From positions 124,001 to 188,000 of the forward strand of contig NZ_BBXE01000018.1 of NCBI RefSeq assembly GCF_001570565.1: a DNA stretch of 64,000 nt, read 5' to 3'. Shown one piece after another: positions 4,212 to 20,818 of this stretch. The position numbers and the translations under genes are program-made. Within the stretch, counting starts at the first letter, position 1. Each line of letters starts with the position of its first letter. The notes beneath the pieces were generated by a model. It was not told the origin of the DNA, searched no databases, and saw only the letters and a program-made list of their open reading frames with translations. Source of the stretch: Herbidospora yilanensis (GTDB taxonomy: Bacteria; Actinomycetota; Actinomycetes; Streptosporangiales; Streptosporangiaceae).

Positions 4212-4640
4212 GTGAAAGCCAATCGGTCCATTCCGTCCGCCGCGGTCATCCCCGTCCTGATCTATCCCGATGTCCGGGAGGCGGTCGCCTGGCTCACTGG
4301 GGCGTTCGGCTTCGAGGAGCGGGTGCGGATCGGCGAGAACCACCGCTCCCAGCTTCGCCACGGCGATGGAGCGCTGATCATCGCTGACGTGCGCGGCGAG
4401 CGGAGGCCCCCACGCCCAGGAGAGGTGACCCATTCGGTCACCGTGCGCGTGGAGGACGCCATGGCGCACTGCGAGCACGCCCGGGCCTTCGGCGCGCGCA
4501 TCCTCATGGAGCCCACCGATTTCGAGTACGGCGAGCGGCAGTACGCCGCCGAGGATCTCGCCGGCCACCACTGGACCTTCTCCGAGACGCTCGACGACGT
4601 CGCTCCCGAGGAATGGGGCGGGCAGACCGTCACTCCGTAG
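4212..4640 (+). CDS. VOC (glyoxalase/bleomycin-resistance fold) protein
   Basis: A 142-residue protein of the vicinal-oxygen-chelate superfamily. It has the beta-alpha-beta-beta-beta arrangement: an N-terminal VIPVLIYPDVREAVAWL strand and helix with GFEE, a central VTVRVEDAMAHCEHARAFGA and a C-terminal AAEDLAGHHWTFSE. That is the pattern of small VOC proteins annotated as glyoxalase or antibiotic-binding proteins. Glu and His residues suitable for metal binding are present, but the ligand is not predictable. The start is GTG with no clear Shine-Dalgarno sequence. The 3' end overlaps the convergent E2 gene by 11 bp. Confidence 0.75.
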   Translation: MKANRSIPSAAVIPVLIYPDVREAVAWLTGAFGFEERVRIGENHRSQLRHGDGALIIADVRGERRPPRPGEVTHSVTVRVEDAMAHCEHARAFGARILMEPTDFEYGERQYAAEDLAGHHWTFSETLDDVAPEEWGGQTVTP

Positions 4641-5709
4641 CGGTCAGGGCCCTGGTCTCCCGCTGGAGGGCGTTGAGGAAACGGGCGGCGTCGCGGCCGT
4701 TGATCAGGCGGTGGTCGTAGGCCAGGCCGATGTGGGCCACCTGCCGCGATCTCACCTCGGTCCCGTCCAGGTAGAGGACCTCCCGGGGAGCCGTCACGGC
4801 CAGCGCGCAGGCGGTCCCGGGGAAGATGAACGGGATGGCCAGGGTGATGCCGCCGTCGTGGTGGAGGGTGACGGCGATGTTCGCGCCGGCCAGGTCGGCG
4901 GCGCTGAAATCGCCCTTCATCGCGGCGACGCGATATTCCATCAGCCTGGTCGCGACCTCCTGGAGCGTCTTGGTTCCGGCGTCGTGGACGACCGGGACGT
5001 ACAGGCCGTCGCCGGTGTCGAAGGTGACGCCGACGTTGGCGGTCTCCGCGAGCACCGCCTTGGTGCGGTCGTCGCCGAGGGTGGCGAAGAACAGCGGGAA
5101 CTCGGTGTGGAGTCTGGCCACGGCCATGACGAAGAGCTCGGCCAGGCCGACGGGGCGGCGGACCTGTTTCGTCAGCCGGCGGGTGGCGGCGAGTTCCTCG
5201 TCGAGAGCCATGTCGAGGACGGCGTAGGCCGCGGGGATGGTGGAGTGCGAGAGCGTGACCGCCCGGCCGACGGCCTGCTGCACCTTCGACAACGGGGCGG
5301 TGGCGACGGAACTCTCCGCGGCCAGCCGCTCGACGTCGGCCCGCCGGACGACGTTGACGCCCAGGGTGCCGACCTGCTCTTCGGTCACGCCGAGTTCGTC
5401 CATGGCCGCCCGCGCGGGCGCGGTGATCACCGGGCCGGTACGGCTCTCCGGCGTCACCGGAGACTCGATCGGCGCGGGGGCCGGGGCCGACGAGCCGATG
5501 GTCGCCAGCAGGTCGCCCGGGGCGCAGTCGGCCATCAGGGCGACCTCCTGCCGCAACACTCCCGTCGCGTCGGCCGTCACCTCCTCGGCCGACTTGGAGG
5601 TCTCCAGGACGGCCACCGGGTCGCCCTCCTTGACCTCGGTCCCCGTCGCCACCAGCCATTCGACCAGGACGTAGGTGTCGTCGTTGTTGTTGAGCTTGGG
5701 GACCTTCAC
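4630..5709 (-). CDS. 2-oxoacid dehydrogenase E2-like dihydrolipoyl acyltransferase
   Basis: A 359-residue E2 acyltransferase: lipoyl domain (about 1-75, lipoylation motif ETSKS with Lys39), a linker with proline and alanine, a peripheral subunit-binding domain (about 115-155), and a catalytic acyltransferase domain ending in YDHRLINGRD (His333, Asp340). Known E2 enzymes move an acyl group from lipoamide to CoA. The GTG start overlaps the E1beta stop by 4 bp, so it is translationally coupled as the last gene of a five-gene operon that begins with adenylation and condensation-carrier genes. No E3 (lipoamide dehydrogenase) gene is present, so E3 would have to act from elsewhere. It could equally be an ordinary branched-chain, pyruvate or acetoin E2; the operon context argues for a biosynthetic role. 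Confidence 0.88.
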   Translation of the reverse strand: MKVPKLNNNDDTYVLVEWLVATGTEVKEGDPVAVLETSKSAEEVTADATGVLRQEVALMADCAPGDLLATIGSSAPAPAPIESPVTPESRTGPVITAPARAAMDELGVTEEQVGTLGVNVVRRADVERLAAESSVATAPLSKVQQAVGRAVTLSHSTIPAAYAVLDMALDEELAATRRLTKQVRRPVGLAELFVMAVARLHTEFPLFFATLGDDRTKAVLAETANVGVTFDTGDGLYVPVVHDAGTKTLQEVATRLMEYRVAAMKGDFSAADLAGANIAVTLHHDGGITLAIPFIFPGTACALAVTAPREVLYLDGTEVRSRQVAHIGLAYDHRLINGRDAARFLNALQRETRALTATE

Positions 5710-6683
5710 TTGAGGGACTCCAGGACCGTGTCGTGGATGGTGGTTTCGGTCAGCAGGACGGCACGTTCCAGGTGGCTCGCCGTCGGGATGATGCTGTCGG
5801 CCGAGTGGGCCAGCGCGACCGGGTTGCGCAGCACGCCCCACAACTCCCGGTGCAGCACGTGGGCGACCTCGGCGCCCCACGTCCCCCCGGCGGTGCTCTC
5901 CTCGGCGACCACCACCGACCTGGCCTCGCGCGCCACGGCCACCAGCGGGGCCGCGTCGAGGGGGTGGAGGCGGGAGGGCACGAGCAGGGTGCAGACGATC
6001 TCCTGTTCCAGCAGGAGGCGGCGCATGGCGGCGAGGGCGCGGTGGGTGACGCCGCCGGGGGCGATGATCACGCAGTCGGGCGGGGTGTCGACGTGGACGC
6101 GGGCCAGGCCGTCGGTGAGGTCCCAGGTGAACAGGTCGTCCACCTCGTGCATGCGCTTGGTGTAGAGGACCTTGTCCTCGAAGAAGACGCAGGGGCGCTC
6201 GGCGGCGATCATCTGGGTGAAGACGGCGTGGTTGTCGTGCAGGGGGGACATCTCGTAGACGTCGAGGCCGGGCACGCCGATGAAGTGTTTCTGCAGGCTC
6301 TGGCTGTGGGTGGGACCGTAGCCCCGGCCGCCGCCGGTGGGCAGGCGGACGATGAGGCGCATCGGGACGCGGGTGCCGTACATGGAGACGGACTTGGCGG
6401 CGAAGTTCACGATCTGGTCGAACGCCAGTGTGACGAAGTCGCTGAACATGATCTCGACGATCGCGGTGTCGCCGCACAACGCCAGGCCCGCCCCGACGCC
6501 GGTGATGGCCGATTCGCTGATCGGGGTGGTGATGACCCGCGAGGGGAAGCGCGTCGAGAGGCCGCGGGTGGCTTTGAAGGCGCCGCCGTAGGGGTCCAGG
6601 AGGTCCTCCCCGAGGAGGAAGGCCCTCGGGTTCGCGGCGAGCACCTCGTGCAGCGCGTGGTTGAGGTTCTCCACGACTCTCAT
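5706..6683 (-). CDS. 2-oxoacid dehydrogenase E1 beta subunit
   Basis: A 325-residue transketolase-like E1 beta subunit, the partner of E1alpha in a thiamine-diphosphate 2-oxoacid decarboxylase or dehydrogenase. It contains LLGEDLLDPYGGAF near the N terminus (the conserved Glu that activates the cofactor lies in this type of block), PISESAITGVGAGLA, the pyrimidine-binding FSDFVTLAFDQIVNFAAK and a C-terminal transketolase domain. The start is taken as the ATG at 6683, which overlaps the E1alpha stop by 4 bp (ATGA); an upstream in-frame ATG at 6713 would add ten residues inside E1alpha. Length fits acetoin/pyruvate-type E1beta (about 325). Confidence 0.9.
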   Translation of the reverse strand: MRVVENLNHALHEVLAANPRAFLLGEDLLDPYGGAFKATRGLSTRFPSRVITTPISESAITGVGAGLALCGDTAIVEIMFSDFVTLAFDQIVNFAAKSVSMYGTRVPMRLIVRLPTGGGRGYGPTHSQSLQKHFIGVPGLDVYEMSPLHDNHAVFTQMIAAERPCVFFEDKVLYTKRMHEVDDLFTWDLTDGLARVHVDTPPDCVIIAPGGVTHRALAAMRRLLLEQEIVCTLLVPSRLHPLDAAPLVAVAREARSVVVAEESTAGGTWGAEVAHVLHRELWGVLRNPVALAHSADSIIPTASHLERAVLLTETTIHDTVLESLK

Positions 6684-7552
6684 GCGCCCCGCCTCACGGC
6701 TTGTCGGCCCCACGTCGACAGGGGGCGTGCCTTGACCTCACGGACGACGGAGCCGACCAGGTCGCGGGCGCGGGCGTCCGCCTCCGCGAACCCGGTCACG
6801 TCGGACATGTCGCGATACCAGTCGCGGAGCTCGGAGACGCCCGACCGGGTGTCGTCGCCCTTGCTGTGCGGGCCCAGCCGGTTGACGGCGAACTCCACCA
6901 CCAGCGGGGAGCCGGTCCGCACCGCGGCCACCAGAGGGGTCAGCACGGTCCGGATCGCGGAGACGTCGTCGGCGGGCAGGGCCGTGTGCGCGACCCCGAA
7001 GGCCGCGCAGCGTGCCCCGATGGTGCCCGACATGGCCAGTTCGGTCGGCGTGGTCTGCGCGATGCCGTTGTGCTCGACCACGACCAGCAGCGGCAGCCCC
7101 CACAACGCGGCCAGGTTGAGGGACTCGTAGACCGCGCCCTCGCCCCACGTGCCGTCCCCGATGTAGGCGCACGCCAGGGCGCCGGAGCCGCGCAGGTGCA
7201 GGGCCGCGCCGACGGCCACCGGCAGGCTCTCGCCCTGGACGCCCGTCGACAGGTAGCCCTCGCGCAGGATGTGCTGGCTGCCGCCGACGCCGTCGCAGAC
7301 CGCGCCCTCGCGGCCCATGATCTCGGCCAGCAGGCCGGCGGGGTCGTCGAAGCGGGCCAGGTAGTGGCCGTGGCCGCGATGGTTGCTGAAGACGTGGTCG
7401 TCCGGGCCCAGCAGCGGCGCCAGCGCCACGGGGACGATCTCCTGGCCCAGGCAGGTGTGGGTGGTGCCGTTCAGCTCGCCCTTCGCGAACAGGTCGAGCA
7501 GGGCGCGCTCGAAGTGGCGGATGAGCAGGAGCCGGTCGAGATCGGTGGTCAC
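6680..7552 (-). CDS. 2-oxoacid dehydrogenase E1 alpha subunit (thiamine diphosphate)
   Basis: A 290-residue thiamine-diphosphate-binding subunit, short for the family (about 320-400), as in the acetoin-dehydrogenase-like group. The cofactor motif is complete: GDG at 132-134 and the closing Asn at 162. The conserved N-terminal THTCLGQE and the SNHRGHGHYL segment with the His pair used in E1 catalysis are present. GTG start with a 4-bp overlap with the condensation-carrier gene upstream. The 2-oxo acid substrate is unknown. With E1beta and E2 it should decarboxylate a 2-oxo acid and produce an acyl thioester, or a carboligation product if the acyl anion is captured. Confidence 0.9.
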   Translation of the reverse strand: MTTDLDRLLLIRHFERALLDLFAKGELNGTTHTCLGQEIVPVALAPLLGPDDHVFSNHRGHGHYLARFDDPAGLLAEIMGREGAVCDGVGGSQHILREGYLSTGVQGESLPVAVGAALHLRGSGALACAYIGDGTWGEGAVYESLNLAALWGLPLLVVVEHNGIAQTTPTELAMSGTIGARCAAFGVAHTALPADDVSAIRTVLTPLVAAVRTGSPLVVEFAVNRLGPHSKGDDTRSGVSELRDWYRDMSDVTGFAEADARARDLVGSVVREVKARPLSTWGRQAVRRGA

Positions 7553-8964
7553 CTGACGGCCGGTTCCGCCTCGCGGATCGCCTGGACGACGCCCGCGATG
7601 GTCGGGGTGTCGAAGAAGACGTCCAGGGGGACCTCGACGCCGAGGCGTTTGCGCATGCGGGCGATGATCTGGGTGATGGTCAGGGAGTGCCCGCCGAGGT
7701 CGAACAGGTCCTCCTCGTCGCCGATCTCGTCGATGCCCAGCACTTCCTGCCAGATCTCGCGGACGGCGTCGTCCAGGCCGGACGCCTGTGGGGTGCCGTC
7801 CACCGGGCTTTCGGGGTTGTTCATGATGGTGAGAAGGTCCTCCGCTATCCGGGCGACGTCCGGCTCCGTGCCGGAGCCGGCGCCGTACTGCATGATCACG
7901 TAGAGGCCGTCGGGGTGGTCGACGGCCTGGAGGTGCAGGGTGCTGCGTACGGAATGGTTGAAGGCGGCCCAGTCGACCGTGGTCTTCACGCCGGTGAAGA
8001 CCGGGTCGGGGCGCCGTTTGCGGTAGCTGACGGAGACCTGGGCGAGGGCGGTGCGCGGGCGCACTCCCCTGACGGCGCGGGCGTAGGGCACGTGCCGGAA
8101 GCGGTACATCTCGCGCAGGTCGTGGTGGAGGGTCCGGGCGACGTCGGCGACGGTGCCCGCCGGCGCGACGGTGACGGGGAGCTCGTTGACGAACAGGCCG
8201 ATGTTGTCGCGGACGTCCGGGACCCGGGTGGACAGGTCGACGGCGAGGGTCGGGGCCGGGTCGCCGTAGCGGTGCAGCAGGGTGTGGACGGAGGCCAGGA
8301 AGAGCTCGAAGCGCGAGACGCCGGGCAGGTCGGGCATCCGGCCGCGGAAGGTGTGCACCGCCCCTTCGGCGGCCCCGCGTCCGGCCGTGGCCAGGCCGGG
8401 CAGCGGCGTGGCCTCTCCGGGTGGCCGCGCCGCCCAGTAGGCCTTCGCCTCGTCGAGGTCGTCGCGGACCCGTTCGCGTTCCCCTTCGGCGAAGCTCGCG
8501 TACGACATGCCGAGCCGGGGCCGCGACTCGCCGTTGTAGAAGTCGGCCAGGTCCCTGACCAGGATGTCCTTCGACTCGCCGTCGAACACCAGGTGGTGCG
8601 CGACGAACACCAGCGCGTGCCGCTCGGGGCCCAGCTTGGCGAGGGTGAACCGGGCGAGCGGCCCGTTCTCGACGTCGAAGGGCCGCAGGGTCTCCTCGCG
8701 TACGAGCTCATGAAGGTCGCCGGCGACGGTCAGCCGGATCGGCGGGCGTTGTCCGGGCACCATCACGGGCAGCCCGTCGACCTCGGCGACCGCGCTGGAC
8801 AACACCGCGTGCCGCCGGACGACCGCCGCACAGGCCTGGTGGAGCGCGCACGCGTCGAGCCGTCCCTCGAAGTCGACGACCAGCGGCATGTGGTAGGCGG
8901 TCCGGGCCCGTCCCATCCGCTCGGTGATCCACATCCCGGTCTGCGCGAACGACGCCTCGGTCAT
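7549..8964 (-). CDS. Condensation domain - carrier protein didomain (NRPS C-T)
   Basis: A 471-residue two-domain protein. Residues 1-380 form an NRPS condensation domain with the active-site motif HHLVFDG at 123-129. Residues 395-471 form a peptidyl or acyl carrier domain with LFDLGGHSL; Ser427 is the phosphopantetheine attachment site. There is no adenylation domain; the gene just upstream encodes a free adenylating enzyme. The ATG at 8964 overlaps that gene's stop by 4 bp; the longer open frame in this region would run back into the adenylating gene and is not used. It probably joins a carrier-bound acyl donor to an acceptor in assembly of the cluster product. Confidence 0.88.
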   Translation of the reverse strand: MTEASFAQTGMWITERMGRARTAYHMPLVVDFEGRLDACALHQACAAVVRRHAVLSSAVAEVDGLPVMVPGQRPPIRLTVAGDLHELVREETLRPFDVENGPLARFTLAKLGPERHALVFVAHHLVFDGESKDILVRDLADFYNGESRPRLGMSYASFAEGERERVRDDLDEAKAYWAARPPGEATPLPGLATAGRGAAEGAVHTFRGRMPDLPGVSRFELFLASVHTLLHRYGDPAPTLAVDLSTRVPDVRDNIGLFVNELPVTVAPAGTVADVARTLHHDLREMYRFRHVPYARAVRGVRPRTALAQVSVSYRKRRPDPVFTGVKTTVDWAAFNHSVRSTLHLQAVDHPDGLYVIMQYGAGSGTEPDVARIAEDLLTIMNNPESPVDGTPQASGLDDAVREIWQEVLGIDEIGDEEDLFDLGGHSLTITQIIARMRKRLGVEVPLDVFFDTPTIAGVVQAIREAEPAVR

Positions 8965-10337
8965 GGCAGCGCCTTCTTGTCGACCTTGCCGCCCCGGTTG
9001 CGCGGCAGCGTGTCCATCGTGGTGACCTTCGCCGGCAGCTCGTGCGGGGCGAGCCGGTCGATCAGGAACGCCCGCAGGTCCGCGGGGGAGATCTCCTCCC
9101 GGACGACCAGAGCCGCCGCCACCACCGTCCCGAGCACCGGGTGGGGGACGCCGTAGGCGGCGGCCTCGGTGACCAGCGGATGGGCGTGCAGCGCCTCCTC
9201 GATCTTCAGGGTGGAGACCTTGTGGGCGCCCGACTTGACGACGTCGCCGGTCCGGTCGACCAGGAACAGGTAGCCCTCCTCGTCGAGGTAGCCGAGGTCG
9301 CCCATGCGCACCCAGCCGTCGCGGAAGGTGTCCGACGCGGTCTCGCCGAGGTAGGCGCGGGGCGCGGCGGGCGAGCGCATCCACACCTCGCCGACGTCCC
9401 CGGGGGCGGCCGCGGTCCCGTCGGGCGAGCTGATCCTGACCGAGCCGCCGGCCGCCGCGCGGCCCACCGACCCCGGGCGCTCGGGGTCGAAGACCATGAT
9501 CGTCTGAGCGGGGGCGGCCTCGGTGGAGGTGTAGTAGTTCGTGATCATCGCGGCCGGGAACAGCCCGGCCAGCTTCACCGCCACGGCCGAGGGCAGCGGC
9601 GCGGCGGCCGACCCGAGCAGGAGCACGCTGTCGAGGGGCTCGACCCCGGCCGACAGCAGCTCGATGGCCATGGCGGGCACCAGGAACACCGTCCCGGCCT
9701 GGTATTTCGCGATGAGCGAGGCGAACCGGCGTGGGGTGAAGACGGCGGTCGTGACGACGGTGGGGTGCGCGGCGACGGCGTTGACCAGCATCATCTGGCC
9801 GGCGTTGGTCCCGATGGGGAACGCGTGCGCGAGGTGCCCGGAGTGCCGGAAGGCCCGGCGGCGCGGGTCGCGGTGGAGGCCGAAGGCGAGGTTGGCGTGG
9901 GCGGCGGTGACCCCCTTGGCCACCCCGGTGGTGCCGGAGGTGAAGAGGATCTGAGCGGGGTCGGCCGGAGACACCCGAGGGAGCGGGGAAACCGATCCGT
10001 CCATGAAAGTTACATCGCGCAGGATTCTGCCGATTCCAACACGTTCCGCGAGATGTCGGATCTCTCCCTCCGGGGTGCGGTCGGAGATCGGCACCGCGAC
10101 GGCCCCCGCCCGCAGCACCCCCATGAACGCCACCGCGTAGTCGAGCCATCCCGCGTGGGGGAACACCAGCCCCACCGGCTCCCCGGGGCGCACACCTTCG
10201 GTGATCAGCAGGTTCGCCAGACCGTCGGCACGGGAGTGCCAGGCGGCGTAGGTCAGTTCCCCCACCCCGTGGACGATCATGGCGACGCCGTCAGGCTCGG
10301 CGGCGGCGCGGGCCGCCAGCAGATCCGAGAGCGTCAT
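8961..10337 (-). CDS. Free acyl-adenylating enzyme (AMP-dependent ligase)
   Basis: A 458-residue ANL-superfamily enzyme: P-loop-like core LFTSGTTGVAKG, the YYTSTEA motif, GDLGYLDEEGYLF with the conserved Asp, and the C-terminal GGKVDKK with the catalytic Lys. The acid-recognition region lacks the FDxSVW segment that carries the key Asp of amino-acid-activating domains, so a carboxylic acid substrate is more likely than an amino acid. This is an inference. The start is the ATG at 10337, which has GAGGA a few bases upstream; an in-frame TTG at 10349 is less likely. It is the first gene of the leftward operon and may load the carrier of the next gene. Confidence 0.85.
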   Translation of the reverse strand: MTLSDLLAARAAAEPDGVAMIVHGVGELTYAAWHSRADGLANLLITEGVRPGEPVGLVFPHAGWLDYAVAFMGVLRAGAVAVPISDRTPEGEIRHLAERVGIGRILRDVTFMDGSVSPLPRVSPADPAQILFTSGTTGVAKGVTAAHANLAFGLHRDPRRRAFRHSGHLAHAFPIGTNAGQMMLVNAVAAHPTVVTTAVFTPRRFASLIAKYQAGTVFLVPAMAIELLSAGVEPLDSVLLLGSAAAPLPSAVAVKLAGLFPAAMITNYYTSTEAAPAQTIMVFDPERPGSVGRAAAGGSVRISSPDGTAAAPGDVGEVWMRSPAAPRAYLGETASDTFRDGWVRMGDLGYLDEEGYLFLVDRTGDVVKSGAHKVSTLKIEEALHAHPLVTEAAAYGVPHPVLGTVVAAALVVREEISPADLRAFLIDRLAPHELPAKVTTMDTLPRNRGGKVDKKALP

Positions 10338-10378: not shown

Positions 10379-10405
10379 CTTACTGAAAAGATTCTTTCCA
10401 GTTAG
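10379..10405. promoter_or_regulatory. Candidate operator, 27-bp interrupted palindrome (left copy)
   Basis: Arms CTTACTGAAAAG and CTTTCCAGTTAG separated by ATT; ten of twelve positions pair. The AAAG-CTTT centre with TTAG ends resembles sites bound by ROK-family repressors in actinobacteria. Two ROK genes lie 9-17 kb away in this window, but a link is only a suggestion. Confidence 0.6.
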
Positions 10406-10531: not shown

Positions 10532-10558
10532 CTAATTGCAAAGAACCTTTCCAGTTAG
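10532..10558. promoter_or_regulatory. Candidate operator, 27-bp interrupted palindrome (right copy)
   Basis: Arms CTAATTGCAAAG and CTTTCCAGTTAG separated by AAC; ten of twelve positions pair. The right arm is identical to that of the copy at 10379, and the sites are 153 bp apart, so one regulator could control both divergent operons. Confidence 0.6.
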
Positions 10559-10618: not shown

Positions 10619-15673
<5,055 letters not shown>

Positions 15674-15871
15674 CGGCGAGCTCACCCCGGCCGACGTGCT
15701 GGCGGCGACCGTGCCGCTGGCCTATCTCGGCGTGACCTCGCTGGCGCAGATGCGGCTCATCGACGCCGTCGAGCGCGAATACGGCGTCGAGGTCGACCTG
15801 AGCGGCGACGTGACGTTCCTCGACAGCGTCGACGGGCTGGCCGCCTGGGTCGAGGCCGCCCGGTCGCCGGC

Positions 15872-17140
15872 ATGACCCGGGCCGTTTTCTCGGGCGGGCG
15901 TACCGGGACGGCGTCGTTCACCTGGGGTCAGCGCGCGATCTGGGAGGCGATCGAGCGGACCCGGCCGGACGACCACTACTTCAACTTCGGCCGGGTGCTG
16001 CCGCTCGGGGCGCGCCCGGCGTCGGTGTCGTCGGCGTTGTGGGCGCTGGGCCGGCTCGTCGAGCGGCACGAGTCGCTGCGCACCCTGGTCGGCGACGGCG
16101 GCCAGGCGCTGCGGGCGAGCGGGGAGCTGCGCGTCCGGACCGGCGACGATCCCGCCACCCTGCTGGCCGACATGACGGCCACCGCGTTCGACTACGCGGA
16201 CGAGTGGCCGCTGCGGGCCGGGCTGGTGCTCTCCCCCACCGGTGAGGTCACCCATCTGGTGCTGGTCTTCTGCCATCTGGCCGCCGACGGGCTGGGCGCC
16301 GAGCAGGCCATCCGCGACCTGCGCCTGCTGCTCCTGCGTGGTGGCGCGCCCGCGGCGCGGCCGCCGCAGCCGATGGACATCGCGCGCTGGCAGGGGTCGC
16401 CCGCCGGCCGCCGGGTGGCGGCCGAGGCGGCGGCGTACTGGGAGGACGCGCACCGGCGCATCCCGCCGACGATGTTCCACGTGCCGTCGGGGGCCGGGGA
16501 GTCGCCGCCCATCTGGCGGGCGTCGCTGCGCTCCCCCGCGGTCGACCTGGCCGCGCAGCGGATCGCGGTCCGGCACGGCACGAGCACCTCCACGGTCCTG
16601 CTGACGGCGGTGACGGCGCTGGTGTCGGAGATGACGGGGCACGAGACGGTGGCGATGTTGCCGATCGTGGGGAACCGGTTCCGGGCCGACACCCGGACGG
16701 CGGTGACCACGATGTCGCAGGAGGGGCTGTTCGTCCTGGACGTGGAGAAGGTGCGGTTCGACGAGCTGCTGGGCCTGGCGGGTCCGGCGGCGCTGCGGGC
16801 GTACCGGAGCGCCTATCACGACCCCGCCGACCGGTCCGCGGCGCTGGAGCGGGTCGCGGCCGACCGGGGGACGGTCGTGCATCCGTGGTGCTGCTTCAAC
16901 GACATGCGCTTCGCCGACAACCCCGTCTACCGCGACGAGGCGCTGATCCGCCGGGCGCTCGGCGAGAGCACGCTGAGCTGGCCGATGTCGCAGGACCAGC
17001 TCAACTGCCGGTTCTGCGTCCATCTGAGCGGGACCATGGACGTGTCGGTGACCGCCGACACCCGCTGGTCGTCGAAGGCCGACATGGAGAGGTTCCTGCA
17101 CGGGCTGGAGACGATGCTGGTCGAAGCGGCACTGCGGTGA
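15872..17140 (+). CDS. Free-standing condensation-domain enzyme
   Basis: A 422-residue single-domain protein of the condensation/chloramphenicol-acetyltransferase fold. The usual HHxxxDG motif reads CHLAADG: the first His is Cys, while the second, catalytic His and the Asp-Gly are kept. Other C-domain landmarks are present in divergent form (an N-terminal TWGQRAIW block and a late NDMRF block). ATG overlapping the carrier gene by 4 bp. It is likely to condense or transfer an acyl group bound to the preceding carrier, for example amide or ester formation. Its divergence leaves the bond type open. Confidence 0.78.
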   Translation: MTRAVFSGGRTGTASFTWGQRAIWEAIERTRPDDHYFNFGRVLPLGARPASVSSALWALGRLVERHESLRTLVGDGGQALRASGELRVRTGDDPATLLADMTATAFDYADEWPLRAGLVLSPTGEVTHLVLVFCHLAADGLGAEQAIRDLRLLLLRGGAPAARPPQPMDIARWQGSPAGRRVAAEAAAYWEDAHRRIPPTMFHVPSGAGESPPIWRASLRSPAVDLAAQRIAVRHGTSTSTVLLTAVTALVSEMTGHETVAMLPIVGNRFRADTRTAVTTMSQEGLFVLDVEKVRFDELLGLAGPAALRAYRSAYHDPADRSAALERVAADRGTVVHPWCCFNDMRFADNPVYRDEALIRRALGESTLSWPMSQDQLNCRFCVHLSGTMDVSVTADTRWSSKADMERFLHGLETMLVEAALR

Positions 17141-18987
17141 TCGCCTACGCCGAGGCGACCTCGTGTCCCCAGGGCCGCCCGCTGACCTTCCGGCTGGACG
17201 GCGACAGCGGCGTCCACGTCCACGACGCCACCACGGGTGCCCACGTGCTGACGACGCGCGCGACCGGCCCGCGCTGGACGCTGGTCGTTCCCGGGCACTG
17301 GCCCAGTTCGCTCTACCGCGCCCACTTCACCGACGCGCCTTCCTCGGAGGTACCGAGGGCGACCGGCGAGTTGCCCGGCGTCAACGTCTCCGGCGACGAC
17401 GAGGTCTACTTCGTCGTGACGCCGTCCGGGCCGAAGAAGCACATCCTGGTGTCCATCCCGTTCGGCACCTGGCAGGCCTACAACCGCGCCGGTGTCCCGG
17501 GTGAGGGCCTCTATTGGACGGAGGACCCGTCGCGCGCGACCGAAGTCACCTTCGACCGTCCGGGCGGCGGCCCCTCCCCCGAACGCTGGGAGGACGGCTT
17601 CCTGCGCTGGCTGCGCCCGGCGGGCTTCGAGGCCGACTTCTGCGACGGCCTCGACCTGTCGCCCGAGCTGCTCGACGGCTACCGCCTGCTCGTGGTCAAC
17701 GGCCACGACGAGTACTGGACCCGCGAGATGCGCGACGCCTGCGAGGAGTTCGTGCGGCGCGGCGGCAACATGGCCGTCTTCGCCGGGAACACCGCCTGGT
17801 GGCAGGCCCGCCTGGAGGGCCGCACGCTGGTCTGCCACCGTGACCCCTTCACCGACCCGGTCGACGACCCGTCGCTGGTCACCGCCGAGTGGTCGGCCGT
17901 CGGCCGCCCGGAGAACACGATGACCGGCGTGTCGTTCCGCGCCGGCGCGGGCACGTGGGGCCCGTCGATGCCGTTGATGAACGAGGAGTCGTACGTCACC
18001 CGCTTCGCCGGCCACTGGGTCTTCGAGGGCACCGGCCTGACCGAGGGCGACAAGTTCGCCCAGGGCGCGCTCGGCTACGAGACCGACGCGGCCGAGTTCG
18101 TCGAGGTCGGCGGCGTGCCGAGAGTGACCTCACGCGACGGCACCCCGTCGTCCTTCACCGTCCTCGCCACGGCCGACCTGCGCCACTGGCGCAGCGGCGG
18201 CCAGGGCGGCTGGGCGACCATGGGCGTCTTCACCTCGGGCCGCGGCACCGTGTTCAACGCCGCCACGGTGAACTGGGGCAACACCCTCCACGACCCGGTC
18301 GTCGACCGCATCACCCGCAACGTCATGACCCGCCTCAGTTCGCCGTACGACGGCTGGGACGTGATCGGCGAACCGTCGGACGTCCGCGCCCTGGCCGCCG
18401 ACGCCCGCGTCCTCTACGGCGTGACGTCCGACGGCGCGCTGATGAGCCGCGAACTGTGCGCCCAGAACCTCCTGTGGCGGCCGATCGGCTGGGCCGGCGA
18501 CGTGACCTGCCTCGACACCCCGCGCGAGGCGGCGGGCACCCGCGGCGTCCTGCTGTACGGGGTGACCCCCGAGGGCATGCTGCGCTCGCGGGCGGCCGTG
18601 GAGGTCCCGGCCCCCTGGACCGACGAGGCCCGGTGCCCGGAGGGAACCGTGGCCCTGGCGATCGCCGACTGCACGTTCTGGGCCGCGACCTCGGAGGGCC
18701 GCCTGTGGGCGATGCCCTTCACCGGCGAGGAGTGGCTCGACCGGGGCCCGTGCGACGCGGTGGCCATGAGCGGCATGAACGGCCGCCTCTACGCGCTGAC
18801 GAGCACGGGCGAACTGGTCACCCGCCGCCCGGACGCGACGGACGAGTGGCGCCCGGCGGGCGACCTCCCCGAGGGCACGACGACGTTCACGGCCCACGCG
18901 GGCCGCTTCGTCGCCACCGCTCCGGGGGAACCGCTGCGCTGGCGGGCGAGCCCGAGGGCCGGAGATCAGAGTTCGACCGGACCGTAG
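17137..18987 (+). CDS. N,N-dimethylformamidase large-subunit-like protein with C-terminal repeat domain
   Basis: A 616-residue protein. Residues about 75-410 match the C-terminal domain of the N,N-dimethylformamidase beta subunit: YNRAG, then VVNGHDEYWTREMRDACEEF, GGNMAVFAGNTAWW and a late GRGTVFNAATVNWG. The last 180 residues hold repeated short blocks such as VLYGVTSDGALMSR, LLYGVTPEGMLRSR and LYALTSTGELVTR, which look like tectonin/beta-propeller repeats. No signal peptide. GTG start at 17137 overlaps the previous stop by 4 bp; the longer open frame from 16885 lies inside the condensation gene. A hydrolase acting on an amide of the product is a possible role. The 3' end overlaps the convergent dipeptidase gene by 22 bp. 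Confidence 0.75.
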   Translation: MIAYAEATSCPQGRPLTFRLDGDSGVHVHDATTGAHVLTTRATGPRWTLVVPGHWPSSLYRAHFTDAPSSEVPRATGELPGVNVSGDDEVYFVVTPSGPKKHILVSIPFGTWQAYNRAGVPGEGLYWTEDPSRATEVTFDRPGGGPSPERWEDGFLRWLRPAGFEADFCDGLDLSPELLDGYRLLVVNGHDEYWTREMRDACEEFVRRGGNMAVFAGNTAWWQARLEGRTLVCHRDPFTDPVDDPSLVTAEWSAVGRPENTMTGVSFRAGAGTWGPSMPLMNEESYVTRFAGHWVFEGTGLTEGDKFAQGALGYETDAAEFVEVGGVPRVTSRDGTPSSFTVLATADLRHWRSGGQGGWATMGVFTSGRGTVFNAATVNWGNTLHDPVVDRITRNVMTRLSSPYDGWDVIGEPSDVRALAADARVLYGVTSDGALMSRELCAQNLLWRPIGWAGDVTCLDTPREAAGTRGVLLYGVTPEGMLRSRAAVEVPAPWTDEARCPEGTVALAIADCTFWAATSEGRLWAMPFTGEEWLDRGPCDAVAMSGMNGRLYALTSTGELVTRRPDATDEWRPAGDLPEGTTTFTAHAGRFVATAPGEPLRWRASPRAGDQSSTGP

Positions 18988-19604
18988 ATCGCCGACTCGC
19001 GCCCCCGCGTCATCGCCCAGTAACGGTCGCCGTAGGACCAGTGCCACCACTCGGTCGGATAGTTGACCAGCCCGACCGCCTCCAGCGCCGTCGCCAGCAC
19101 CTTCCGGTTCTGCACGGCCTCGGCGGAGATGTCGGTCGACGCCGTGTAGCAGGCCCCGTCACTCTGTTCCGGCGTGGCGTTGACCTCGGTGCCCATGTCG
19201 AGTTCGACGCCGTCGTCGCCGCACAGCGTCAGGTCGACGGCGGCCCCGGCCGTGTGGGGCGCGACCTCGACGGGCGACACGAACCGGCTCGCCGCCACGT
19301 GCAGCTCGTCACTCGACATGTCCGGAAATGTCGTGCGCAACGTCTCCCGGTACTCCTCGAACCACTTCCGCTGTAACGACACCGGCCGGTAGCCCTCGAC
19401 GACCATCAGGTGCACGCCCAGTGGCAGCACCACCCGCCGCAGCCGCTCGGCGACCCCCTCGCGCAGGTGCGCGAACGCACCGGCCGGGTCGGCCAAGCGC
19501 AGGTCGACACGGAGGAAAGCGCGCACGTCGACGAGCGGCTCAAGGCAATCGATCACCGGTATGGAGGTCACCCGGGGGTCGGAGATCAGAATGACGTCAC
19601 CCAT
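18966..19604 (-). CDS. D-alanyl-D-alanine dipeptidase (VanX-like, M15 family)
   Basis: A 212-residue zinc dipeptidase. The VanX-type motifs are complete: EGYRP with Arg73, zinc ligands His117 and Asp124 in PHTAGAAVD, and EWWHW with catalytic Glu185 and zinc ligand His188. No signal peptide, so cytoplasmic, as for VanX. The start codon is four bases after the stop of the ROK regulator gene, so the two are probably one transcript. VanX homologues either give glycopeptide resistance or recycle D-Ala-D-Ala from the wall. No vanH or vanA is nearby, and the next genes handle amino sugars, so recycling is the better guess. Confidence 0.87.
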   Translation of the reverse strand: MGDVILISDPRVTSIPVIDCLEPLVDVRAFLRVDLRLADPAGAFAHLREGVAERLRRVVLPLGVHLMVVEGYRPVSLQRKWFEEYRETLRTTFPDMSSDELHVAASRFVSPVEVAPHTAGAAVDLTLCGDDGVELDMGTEVNATPEQSDGACYTASTDISAEAVQNRKVLATALEAVGLVNYPTEWWHWSYGDRYWAMTRGRESAIYGPVEL

Positions 19605-19608
19605 ATTG

Positions 19609-20775
19609 TCAGACCGTATCCGAGAAGACCTGTTCCCTCGCCTCCTCCAGGGCGGCCACCAGCGCCCCCCGGAGCACCGGATTGCCGTCCACCTCCGTCA
19701 CCGCCACCCGGGGCCGGGAGGGACAGACACGCGCCACCTCGTCCTCGACCCGGGCGGCCAGCTCGCGGCCGCCGGCCCGGCCGACGTCGCCCGACAGGAC
19801 GATGAGCCCGGGGTCGAGAACCACCGCCACGGCCGCGACGCCGACGGCCAGGCGGCCGGCGAGCTCGTCGAGGAAGCTCCCGTTCCCCTCGGCGACGGCC
19901 TTGGCGACCAGCTCGGCCACGGGCGCCTCCCCCGGGCCCACACCGTGGGCCAGCGCCATGCCGTGCAGCGCGTCCCCGCCGACCAGGCGCTGGAAGGAGC
20001 CGGACTGGGGGTCGCGCACGTTCGAGGGCAGGGGCTCGCCCGGCACGGGCAACCAGCCGATCTCGCCCGCGCCGCCGGTGATGCCCCGGTGCAGCCGGCC
20101 GCCGAGCATGACGCCGAGGCCCTGGCCTGTCCCGGCCCACATGATGACGAAGTCGTCGAGGCCGCGCGCGGCCCCGTGGGCCTGTTCGGCCAGGGCGGCG
20201 AGGTTGACGTCGTTCTCTATGCGTACCGCCCGGCCCAGGTCGGCGCGGAGCTCGGCCAGCACGCCGAAGTGCCACGCGGGCAGGTCGAAGGAGTAGCGCA
20301 CGTCCCCGCTGCGGGGGTCGACCACGCCGCGGGTCCCGATCACCAGGCCGCTGAGCTGGTCGAGGACGATCCCGGCGCTCTCGCAGGCGCGGAAGAGGGC
20401 GTTGTGCACCAGCTTGACGGGGTCGCGGGCCTCGCTGGGGTCGACGGTCACCTCGGCGATGGCGCGGCCGATGATGTCGGCGACCCCGGCGGTCACGCTG
20501 TCGGGCGAGACCTCCAGCCCGGCGACGTACGCCGATTCGGGGTTGACCGCGTAGAGCGCCGCGTTCGGGCCGCGCCCGCCGGCCCGTTCGCCGGCCGTCG
20601 TGACCAAGCCGCGATCTTCCAGCCGGGCGAGCAACTGACCTGAGGTGACCTTGCTCAGTCCGGTGAGTTCGCCCAGCTCGGCCCGGGTGAGCGGGCCCTG
20701 CAGGAGAAGGAGCTCCAGGGCCGATCTGTCGTTTATCTGCCGGAGCAGCCGGGGCGTGCCGGGGCGTCGGGCCAC
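19609..20775 (-). CDS. ROK-family transcriptional regulator (copy A)
   Basis: A 388-residue ROK regulator: N-terminal winged helix (about 8-65, GPLTRAELGELTGLSKVTSGQLLARLEDRGLV) and a sugar-kinase-like ROK domain with an IENDVNLAALAE block and GGAGEIGWLPVPG. The zinc motif CxCGxxGCxE is absent, and the His of the usual GEIGH is Trp. The start is taken as the GTG at 20775 because the protein then aligns from its first residues with copy B (25806-26984) and has GGGAGA upstream; a GTG at 20796 is the alternative. It is divergent from the binding-lipoprotein gene and probably represses it from the palindrome at 20819. Confidence 0.88.
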   Translation of the reverse strand: MARRPGTPRLLRQINDRSALELLLLQGPLTRAELGELTGLSKVTSGQLLARLEDRGLVTTAGERAGGRGPNAALYAVNPESAYVAGLEVSPDSVTAGVADIIGRAIAEVTVDPSEARDPVKLVHNALFRACESAGIVLDQLSGLVIGTRGVVDPRSGDVRYSFDLPAWHFGVLAELRADLGRAVRIENDVNLAALAEQAHGAARGLDDFVIMWAGTGQGLGVMLGGRLHRGITGGAGEIGWLPVPGEPLPSNVRDPQSGSFQRLVGGDALHGMALAHGVGPGEAPVAELVAKAVAEGNGSFLDELAGRLAVGVAAVAVVLDPGLIVLSGDVGRAGGRELAARVEDEVARVCPSRPRVAVTEVDGNPVLRGALVAALEEAREQVFSDTV

Positions 20776-20818
20776 CGCTGTCTCCCTTCTCGTCACGATC
20801 CGCTAACGCGGGTTTTTT

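Follow-up and report, generated by a model that had tools for sequence, protein, structure and literature searches.

The window analysed here, a 64,000-nucleotide stretch of the actinomycete Herbidospora yilanensis (positions 124,001 to 188,000 of contig NZ_BBXE01000018.1, hereafter C18, in a genome of 7.85 Mb), contains an operon of five minus-strand genes at positions 4630-10337, in which parts of a nonribosomal peptide synthetase (NRPS) are combined with subunits of the 2-oxoacid dehydrogenase type. The genes encode a stand-alone adenylating enzyme (A), a condensation domain fused to a peptidyl carrier domain (C-T), the alpha and beta subunits of a thiamine-diphosphate E1 (E1a and E1b), and an E2. 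The E1/E2 set is read, with a probability of around 0.65, as a loader of the NapB/NapD kind, which would place a glycolyl unit on the condensation-fused peptidyl carrier protein (PCP) or on a small carrier, and would supply the unknown first unit of the published cluster nrps-6. The E1 falls in a clade with a named member of the carrier-loading E1/E2 sets, the E2 retains its lipoyl lysine and histidine, and a carrier lies beside E1a. This adjacent carrier is not a discrete acyl carrier protein (ACP) of the DinT subfamily, and the system is therefore a variant, rather than a plain member, of these sets.

Layout of the operon

The five genes were delimited by translation of the open reading frames. 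The acyl-CoA-ligase-like A (8961-10337; ATG at 10337, stop at 8961; 458 amino acids, aa) contains the Pfam domains AMP-binding and AMP-binding_C, and C-T (7549-8964; ATG at 8964; 471 aa) contains Condensation and PP-binding. E1a, of the DinU/NapB type (6680-7552; GTG at 7552; 290 aa), matches E1_dh, while E1b, of the DinS/NapD type (5706-6683; ATG at 6683; 325 aa), matches Transket_pyr and Transketolase_C. The lipoyl and acyltransferase domains of E2 (4630-5709; GTG at 5709; 359 aa) are recognised as Biotin_lipoyl and 2-oxoacid_dh. Every one of these scores exceeds the gathering score, and no Pfam match to a peripheral subunit-binding domain was obtained for E2.

The four junctions (8964/8961, 7552/7549, 6683/6680, and 5709/5706) are each a 4-bp start/stop overlap, from which the joint production of the five proteins can be inferred. 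No lipoamide dehydrogenase (E3) is encoded in the operon, and a whole-genome search for this enzyme returned 30 matches, none of them on C18, with a single one, on contig C28, above the curated cut-off. The translation, the Pfam domains, and the E3 search thus confirm the first-pass annotation of this DNA, which had reported the five genes, their coordinates, the overlaps, and the missing E3. Its further view, that 2-oxoacid dehydrogenase subunits are rarely wired so tightly to NRPS parts, does not hold, given that the E1a/ACP and ACP/E1b-E2 junctions of the dnacin locus are likewise 4-bp overlaps, and that the genes of Streptomyces NBC_01136 overlap by 4 bp (ACP/E1a), 10 bp (E1a/E1b), and 8 bp (E1b/E2).

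The lipoyl lysine of E2 is present in 85/85 and its catalytic histidine in 82/82 of the aligned loci, out of the 85 loci given. The HHxxxDG motif of the C domain is found in all 52 loci with an aligned C, and the carrier serine at the C-T position in all 71 with an aligned carrier, which is not always an orthologue, while the two ligase lysines of A are invariant in the alignable loci. The lipoyl lysine, the E2 histidine, HHxxxDG, the carrier serine, and the ligase lysines are taken to have their usual roles in these proteins.

Kinship of E1 and E2

In a careful tree of 43 rows, out of 153 E1 pairs, the window and the DinU/DinS pair of dnacin fall within a 26-row clade (support 100/100, branch 0.93). 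The RenH group is sister to this clade (30 rows jointly, 100/100, branch 0.92), and the acetoin-dehydrogenase operon and the E1s resembling pyruvate or branched-chain dehydrogenases, taken as primary-type, lie outside both groups. A quick tree of 68 rows agrees with this topology. The named anchors are dnacin and RenH, the latter from the renieramycin plasmid, taken from a plasmid collection; Nap, Qnc, and Scl are linked through published identities, and the pepteridine E1 is not among the rows. This position of the E1, together with the absence of E3 from C18, separates the operon from the primary 2-oxoacid and acetoin dehydrogenase complexes.

The identities follow the same pattern. E1a shares 63% of its residues with DinU, 43% with RenH, 34% with the acetoin-dehydrogenase operon, and 26-40% with other actinomycete E1s outside the clade, and the corresponding values for E1b are 55% (to the E1b part of DinS), 36%, 35%, and 28-41%. 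The E2 is 38% identical to DinS in the dnacin locus. The identities given in the excerpts used here are 68% for DinU-NapB and 59% for DinS-NapD (PMC7570522), and 61% for SclQ2-QncN and 51% for SclQ3-QncL (PMC6335953). At the level of sequence, the window-dnacin values are in the same range as these published pairs of the putative carrier-loading family.

The dnacin locus itself was found by a search of 327 genomes in the family of a Saccharothrix relative. It was recognised by gene lengths of 336, 754, 76, 306, and 909 aa, which are those listed for DinQ, DinS, DinT, DinU, and DinR4 in the part of PMC7570522 that was available. Its domain content also matches, as the expected positions of DinV and DinW hold aminodeoxychorismate-synthase-like and HpaB domains. 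In this locus, a single frame of 1187 aa corresponds to two published proteins, DinV (706 aa) and DinW (486 aa), and DinR6, published with 613 aa, reads as 632 aa when its first start is used, with domains that fit in both cases.

A comparison of alignment columns included 49 rows of the clade, which, like the 68-row tree, contain two identical pairs, along with four RenH-type rows and 15 rows from outside. E1b E57, E1b H126, and E1a H229, which are taken to be cofactor and catalytic residues, are invariant across all these rows. Other columns are fixed in the clade, common to the window and dnacin, and rare outside, including E1b Y122, P124, and T125, and E1a T30, T31, T33, and C34, among others. 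Many further E1 columns are fixed or nearly so in the clade, as in dnacin, and different in most of the outside rows.

The family is also represented elsewhere. Three E1 pairs from the family of the Saccharothrix relative (L126, L127, and L132) group with the sponge-symbiont RenH, and NRPS pieces were mapped in the wider regions around them (L141 and L142). Within the E1 clade, L094 belongs to the cyanobacterium Desmonostoc, and L102 to a Paenibacillus plasmid, where the genes lie beside a type I polyketide synthase and two small ACPs.

Gene neighbourhood of the relatives

The neighbourhood was surveyed in the best 80 of 575 relatives from a scan of genome contigs, 79 of which hold a complete E1 pair and form the base of the adjacency count. 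The order A-C-T-E1a-E1b-E2 is found in 43 of the 80 loci, and in several genera. This number combines 39 loci in which a script found the order A, C, T, E1a, E1b with four Herbidospora loci outside its spacing rule. The script placed E2 directly after E1b in 79 of the 80 loci, and visual inspection did so in the remaining one (L096). All but two loci (78/80, the exceptions being L064 and L073) contain an NRPS or carrier piece of some kind in the fetched stretch. The nearest named E1b proteins, at 94-96% identity, are those of four Herbidospora species.

E1a has a carrier beside it in 56 of the 79 loci and in 15 of 22 further clade loci (18 of 27 prior to the removal of L104-L108, which are identical to loci among the 80). 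A carrier was found beside none of the four RenH-type E1 pairs, RenH included, and none of 17 E1 loci outside the clade, which were hand-picked, placed outside by tree or identity, and have annotated neighbours in L158, L159, L160, and L162, the others not being proven primary metabolism. The carriers were detected with a profile built from seven carriers, whose sensitivity leans towards those seven, as a simple motif missed most of them.

In four loci (L047, L059, L067, and L074), two separate frames directly upstream of E1a encode the C domain and a carrier of 76 to 79 aa, so that this arrangement exists in two states, the fused C-T of the window being one. Other clade loci, such as that of Streptomyces NBC_01136, have a discrete ACP in the place of C-T. 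The first-pass annotation had named a pattern that would speak against its proposal, namely a full set of close orthologues in primary-metabolism loci combined with an arrangement unique to one strain, and the survey does not show this pattern, given the NRPS and carrier pieces in 78 loci and the spread over several genera. Its proposal is also to be corrected in that the arrangement is neither unique nor unprecedented, and belongs to one branch of a widespread natural-product E1/E2 family.

A second cluster, on contig C20 of the same genome (L143:5398-18628), has E1a, E1b, and E2 of the same type beside another condensation-adenylation-carrier-thioesterase-transporter protein. It also holds a stand-alone carrier, a glycosyltransferase, a family-1 glycosidase, an aldose epimerase, and an APH-type kinase, and no ligase and C-T pair was seen within this interval. 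Its nearest carrier is 1.4-1.6 kb upstream of E1a, between the NRPS and glycosyltransferase genes. An apparent fusion of E1a and E1b in this cluster was rejected, as the 632-aa frame (L143:12270-14168) gives only E1b domains in Pfam.

Carriers, ligase, and the published cluster

Two carriers are candidates for loading. The T of C-T ends at the start of E1a, and it is most likely the loaded carrier because of this position. The alternative is T80, a stand-alone carrier of 80 aa encoded on the plus strand at 15633-15875 (Pfam PP-binding), whose carrier serine is conserved in 37/37 aligned loci. The T of C-T is 66% identical to the stand-alone T of L047. In five inspected loci with no carrier beside E1a (L143, L052, L068, L075, and L086), a carrier is found 1.4 to 3 kb upstream, and each of these is nearest, among the five carriers compared, to the T of C-T (26-32 of 63-68 residues). 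This supports, without proving, a T-of-C-T type of carrier as the probable partner of E2. The stronger conservation of this T relative to its C (median identity 72% versus 47% in 40 loci) was considered as a sign of pairing and set aside, as the T and C of the NRPS module, used as a control, follow the same trend (57% and 42% in 40 loci).

The best solved relative of A is oxalate-CoA ligase (150 bits), and the enzyme is nearest to the acyl-CoA ligases. Amino-acid-activating domains carry Phe-Asp at the position that anchors the amino acid, where A, read by hand, has Phe-Pro. The stretch HAFPIGTNAGQ of A is conserved in 52 aligned sequences, including that of the window.

The NRPS encoded on the opposite strand (10619-15673, 1684 aa) comprises, by Pfam, one condensation-adenylation-carrier module followed by a thioesterase (TE) and a fused transporter of the major facilitator superfamily (MFS), and is abbreviated as C-A-T-TE-MFS. 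Its specificity code, DFTKIGHVGK, or a one-letter variant, recurs in the near relatives. Farther relatives have extra modules with the codes DILQ... and DTED..., and end in other terminal modules. By the code tables, DFTKIGHVGK is presumably Asp-like, DILQ... is taken as a Gly code, DTED... has no assignment, and the terminal modules of the farther relatives are presumed to be Asp-, Ser-, or Cys-like. With A, C, T, and E1/E2 kept in many of these farther relatives, the sequences depict what is apparently a conserved starter with a changing peptide.

The cluster is the nrps-6 of a 2015 survey of five Herbidospora type strains, in which it occurs in all five as C/T and C/Aasn/T-TE proteins with the predicted product "?-Asn", the survey software having called the module code Asn (PMC4599437, consulted in part). 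The lengths in the third strain column of its table, 471 and 1684 aa, are those of the C-T and NRPS of the window, and the loci of H. daliensis and H. sakaeratensis can be read with the lengths of the last two columns (471 and 1677 aa). The E1/E2 part of the cluster seems not to be noted in that paper, because the word "dehydrogenase" does not occur in its main text.

Proposed mechanism and alternatives

In the proposed mechanism, E1a and E1b, with thiamine diphosphate, would cleave a ketose phosphate, such as xylulose 5-phosphate, to give a two-carbon dihydroxyethyl-thiamine unit, which the lipoyl arm of E2 would take up as a glycolyl thioester. The acyltransferase domain of E2 would then pass the glycolyl on to a carrier, at its phosphopantetheine arm, and not to coenzyme A (CoA), and the dihydrolipoyl group would be reoxidised by the ordinary E3 of the cell. 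The acceptor would be the T of C-T, encoded directly upstream of E1a, or alternatively T80. A would activate a second carboxylic acid, one with no alpha-amino group, which the C domain would join to the glycolyl unit. In the simplest scheme from the domain order, the T of C-T would hold the glycolyl as acceptor and T80 would donate the acid supplied by A, and the reverse assignment may hold. The acyl starter would pass to the Asp/Asn-type module of C-A-T-TE-MFS, with the product being released by the thioesterase and exported.

It is conceivable, if rather doubtful, that the C domain forms an ester between the hydroxyl of the glycolyl unit and the acid from the ligase, delivered on T80, so that the line would start with an O-acyl-glycolyl. 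This would be an ester-type starter, half of it derived from a sugar phosphate, kept across the Streptosporangiaceae while the following amino acids vary.

Glycolyl loading would fill a gap, as the published "?-Asn" prediction, in the part of PMC4599437 consulted, leaves the first unit open. A number of points weigh on the other side. The donor is deduced from kinship, and a 2-oxo acid, such as hydroxypyruvate or pyruvate, may serve in its place. There is no carrier right beside E1a in 23 of the 79 loci, 7 of the 22 further loci, or any of the four RenH-type loci. The T of C-T is of the NRPS type, with 38% identity to the T of the NRPS and 26% to DinT, while T80 is weakly like the DinT-type carriers (15-30%). 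The genetics of the scl cluster, as described in excerpts of PMC6335953, gives partial support, with some product remaining in the absence of sclQ1-4 and its level being restored by glycolic acid.

The published proposal for pepteridine, in so far as it was available, involves a 2-oxo-acid E1, together with an E2 that is joined to C and T domains, in a pathway with no E3, and it provides a precedent for a decarboxylating complex that primes a carrier with acetyl, propionyl, or another acyl group. The histidines E1b H126 and E1a H229 are common to all 15 E1 rows outside the clade, and E1a and E1b both find their best NCBIfam matches in models of the pyruvate dehydrogenase E1, under the cut-offs of those models, which would be in keeping with such a complex. 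The E1a and E1b of the window nevertheless belong to the DinU/DinS clade, with its own residues, apart from the acetoin-, pyruvate-, and branched-chain-like E1s, and this explanation is therefore considered unlikely. The earlier suggestion, that E1/E2 make an acyl-lipoamide that is passed to the carrier, finds good support as a class of reaction, given the DinU/DinS-NapB/NapD kinship and the carrier beside E1a, with the donor more likely to be a ketose phosphate than a 2-oxo acid.

The first-pass annotation had also raised a carboligation onto a carrier-bound acyl group. E1a and E1b would then be a transketolase that attaches the two-carbon unit to an acyl group, either bound to a carrier or already finished, by carboligation or by forming a C-O bond, in the way that Rif15 acts on rifamycin S. 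Rif15 is a two-subunit natural-product transketolase that uses a 2-ketose donor, and thiamine diphosphate and Mg were sufficient for its activity in vitro (PMC6002545, seen in part). Such a reaction needs no E2, whereas an E2 with both catalytic residues is conserved after E1b throughout the 80 relatives, which makes this reading highly improbable. Harder still to credit would be an operon that lies beside the NRPS genes incidentally and serves the general supply of free glycolyl-CoA or some other acyl-CoA. The E2 does belong to the 2-oxoacid_dh family, in which CoA is the usual acceptor, and the carrier of the C20 cluster is not adjacent to E1a, from which it is separated by the glycosyltransferase gene. 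Against this stand the 4-bp overlaps that tie the E1/E2 genes to C-T, the linkage in 43 of 80 loci, and the lack of an adjacent carrier in all 17 loci outside the clade.

Glycolyl loading would offer a concrete starter, a two-carbon unit from central sugar metabolism, for the "?" of a cluster conserved in five Herbidospora type strains. It would also provide a sequence handle for finding glycolyl-primed peptides, as module-based prediction leaves such starters unknown.

Divergent genes and promoter region

The plus-strand genes continue beyond T80 with Cb, a condensation-like protein with the motif CHxxxDG (15872-17140, 422 aa; Pfam Condensation, 32.4 bits versus a cut-off of 30.6), the histidine and aspartate of which are present in 22/22 aligned loci. 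It is followed by an N,N-dimethylformamidase-beta-like protein (17137-18987; DMFA2_C, PF20254, 212.5 bits), possibly a tailoring amidohydrolase. A DMFA2_C-type gene adjoins Cb in several relatives, and is a recurring gene of the cluster. The TE and MFS pieces, fused in the window, are adjacent on one strand in 44 of the 80 relatives, which suggests that release is coupled to export.

The divergent promoter region between A and the NRPS gene holds twin palindromic, operator-like sites, TAACTGGAAAGnnnCTTTnCAnTTA, at 10380-10404 and 10533-10557, for which the chance expectation in the window is 0. The genome contains only one other near-match (C20:131942, with 2 mismatches). Among the 80 relatives, 33 have a similar site in the interval separating A from the divergent gene next to it, with up to 6 mismatches allowed and the chance rate at this threshold not computed. 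An operator common to these palindromes and the neighbouring ROK regulator was considered and rejected, and no regulator is claimed for them, because the ROK promoter holds AAGAAAGTTTCTT, with a different spacing. Beside the cluster (18966-20796) are a VanX-like D-Ala-D-Ala dipeptidase and this ROK regulator, adjoined by a sugar ATP-binding cassette transporter and a family-3 glycosidase. The dipeptidase and the regulator are both found in the fetched stretch of 9 of the 80 relatives, on either side of the cluster.

Comparison with known systems

The comparisons below draw on parts of the published accounts. The closest parallels are naphthyridinomycin (NapB/C/D) and dnacin (DinU/T/S), which share with the window an E1a, E1b, and E2 of the same clade, a carrier next to E1a, tight overlaps, and acyl-ligase and NRPS genes in the same cluster; the likeness to Nap is drawn from published identities to Din, and not from Nap sequences. 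For the NapB/NapD homologues of dnacin, the published view is that they derive a hydroxyethyl unit from xylulose 5-phosphate and pass it to the ACP DinT (PMC7570522). In dnacin, however, E1b and E2 form one protein of 754 aa, with a discrete ACP of 76 aa, from another subfamily, as the carrier, whereas the window has a separate E1b and E2, and a PCP fused to C.

QncN, QncL, and QncM are said to direct the making and attachment of a two-carbon glycolyl unit, and SclQ1-4 are proposed to do likewise in scleric acid (PMC6335953). The scleric acid system of Streptomyces sclerotialus (SclQ1-4, SclN, SclT, and SclE), compared by description and not by its sequences, resembles the window in its separate E1a, E1b, and E2, single C-A-T module, thioesterase, MFS transporter, and glycolyl as the proposed building block. 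It differs in that SclQ1 is a stand-alone ACP, the code is for Pro, and the part consulted mentions neither a stand-alone ligase nor a C-T, while the TE and MFS of the window are fused to an NRPS with an Asp/Asn-like code.

The pepteridine cluster of Photorhabdus (plu2792-plu2799), also compared by description only, has E1, E2, C, and T together, no E3, and a proposed direct priming of the carrier, as in the window. Its C and T are fused to E2, and 2-oxo acids are the proposed source of its acyl groups, whereas the C-T and E2 of the window are separate proteins. The nrps-6 table of PMC4599437, in the part available, covers the NRPS proteins only, and leaves the first unit as "?".

No description of the arrangement with the ligase, C-T, and TE-MFS was found in the literature searched, which had most subscription journals outside its reach. 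The chemistry is thus already known, and this arrangement is a variant of it. It indicates that the NapB/NapD-type loader extends beyond the tetrahydroisoquinoline antibiotics, as a cassette that recurs across many NRPS clusters of actinomycetes and is combined with carriers of at least two kinds.

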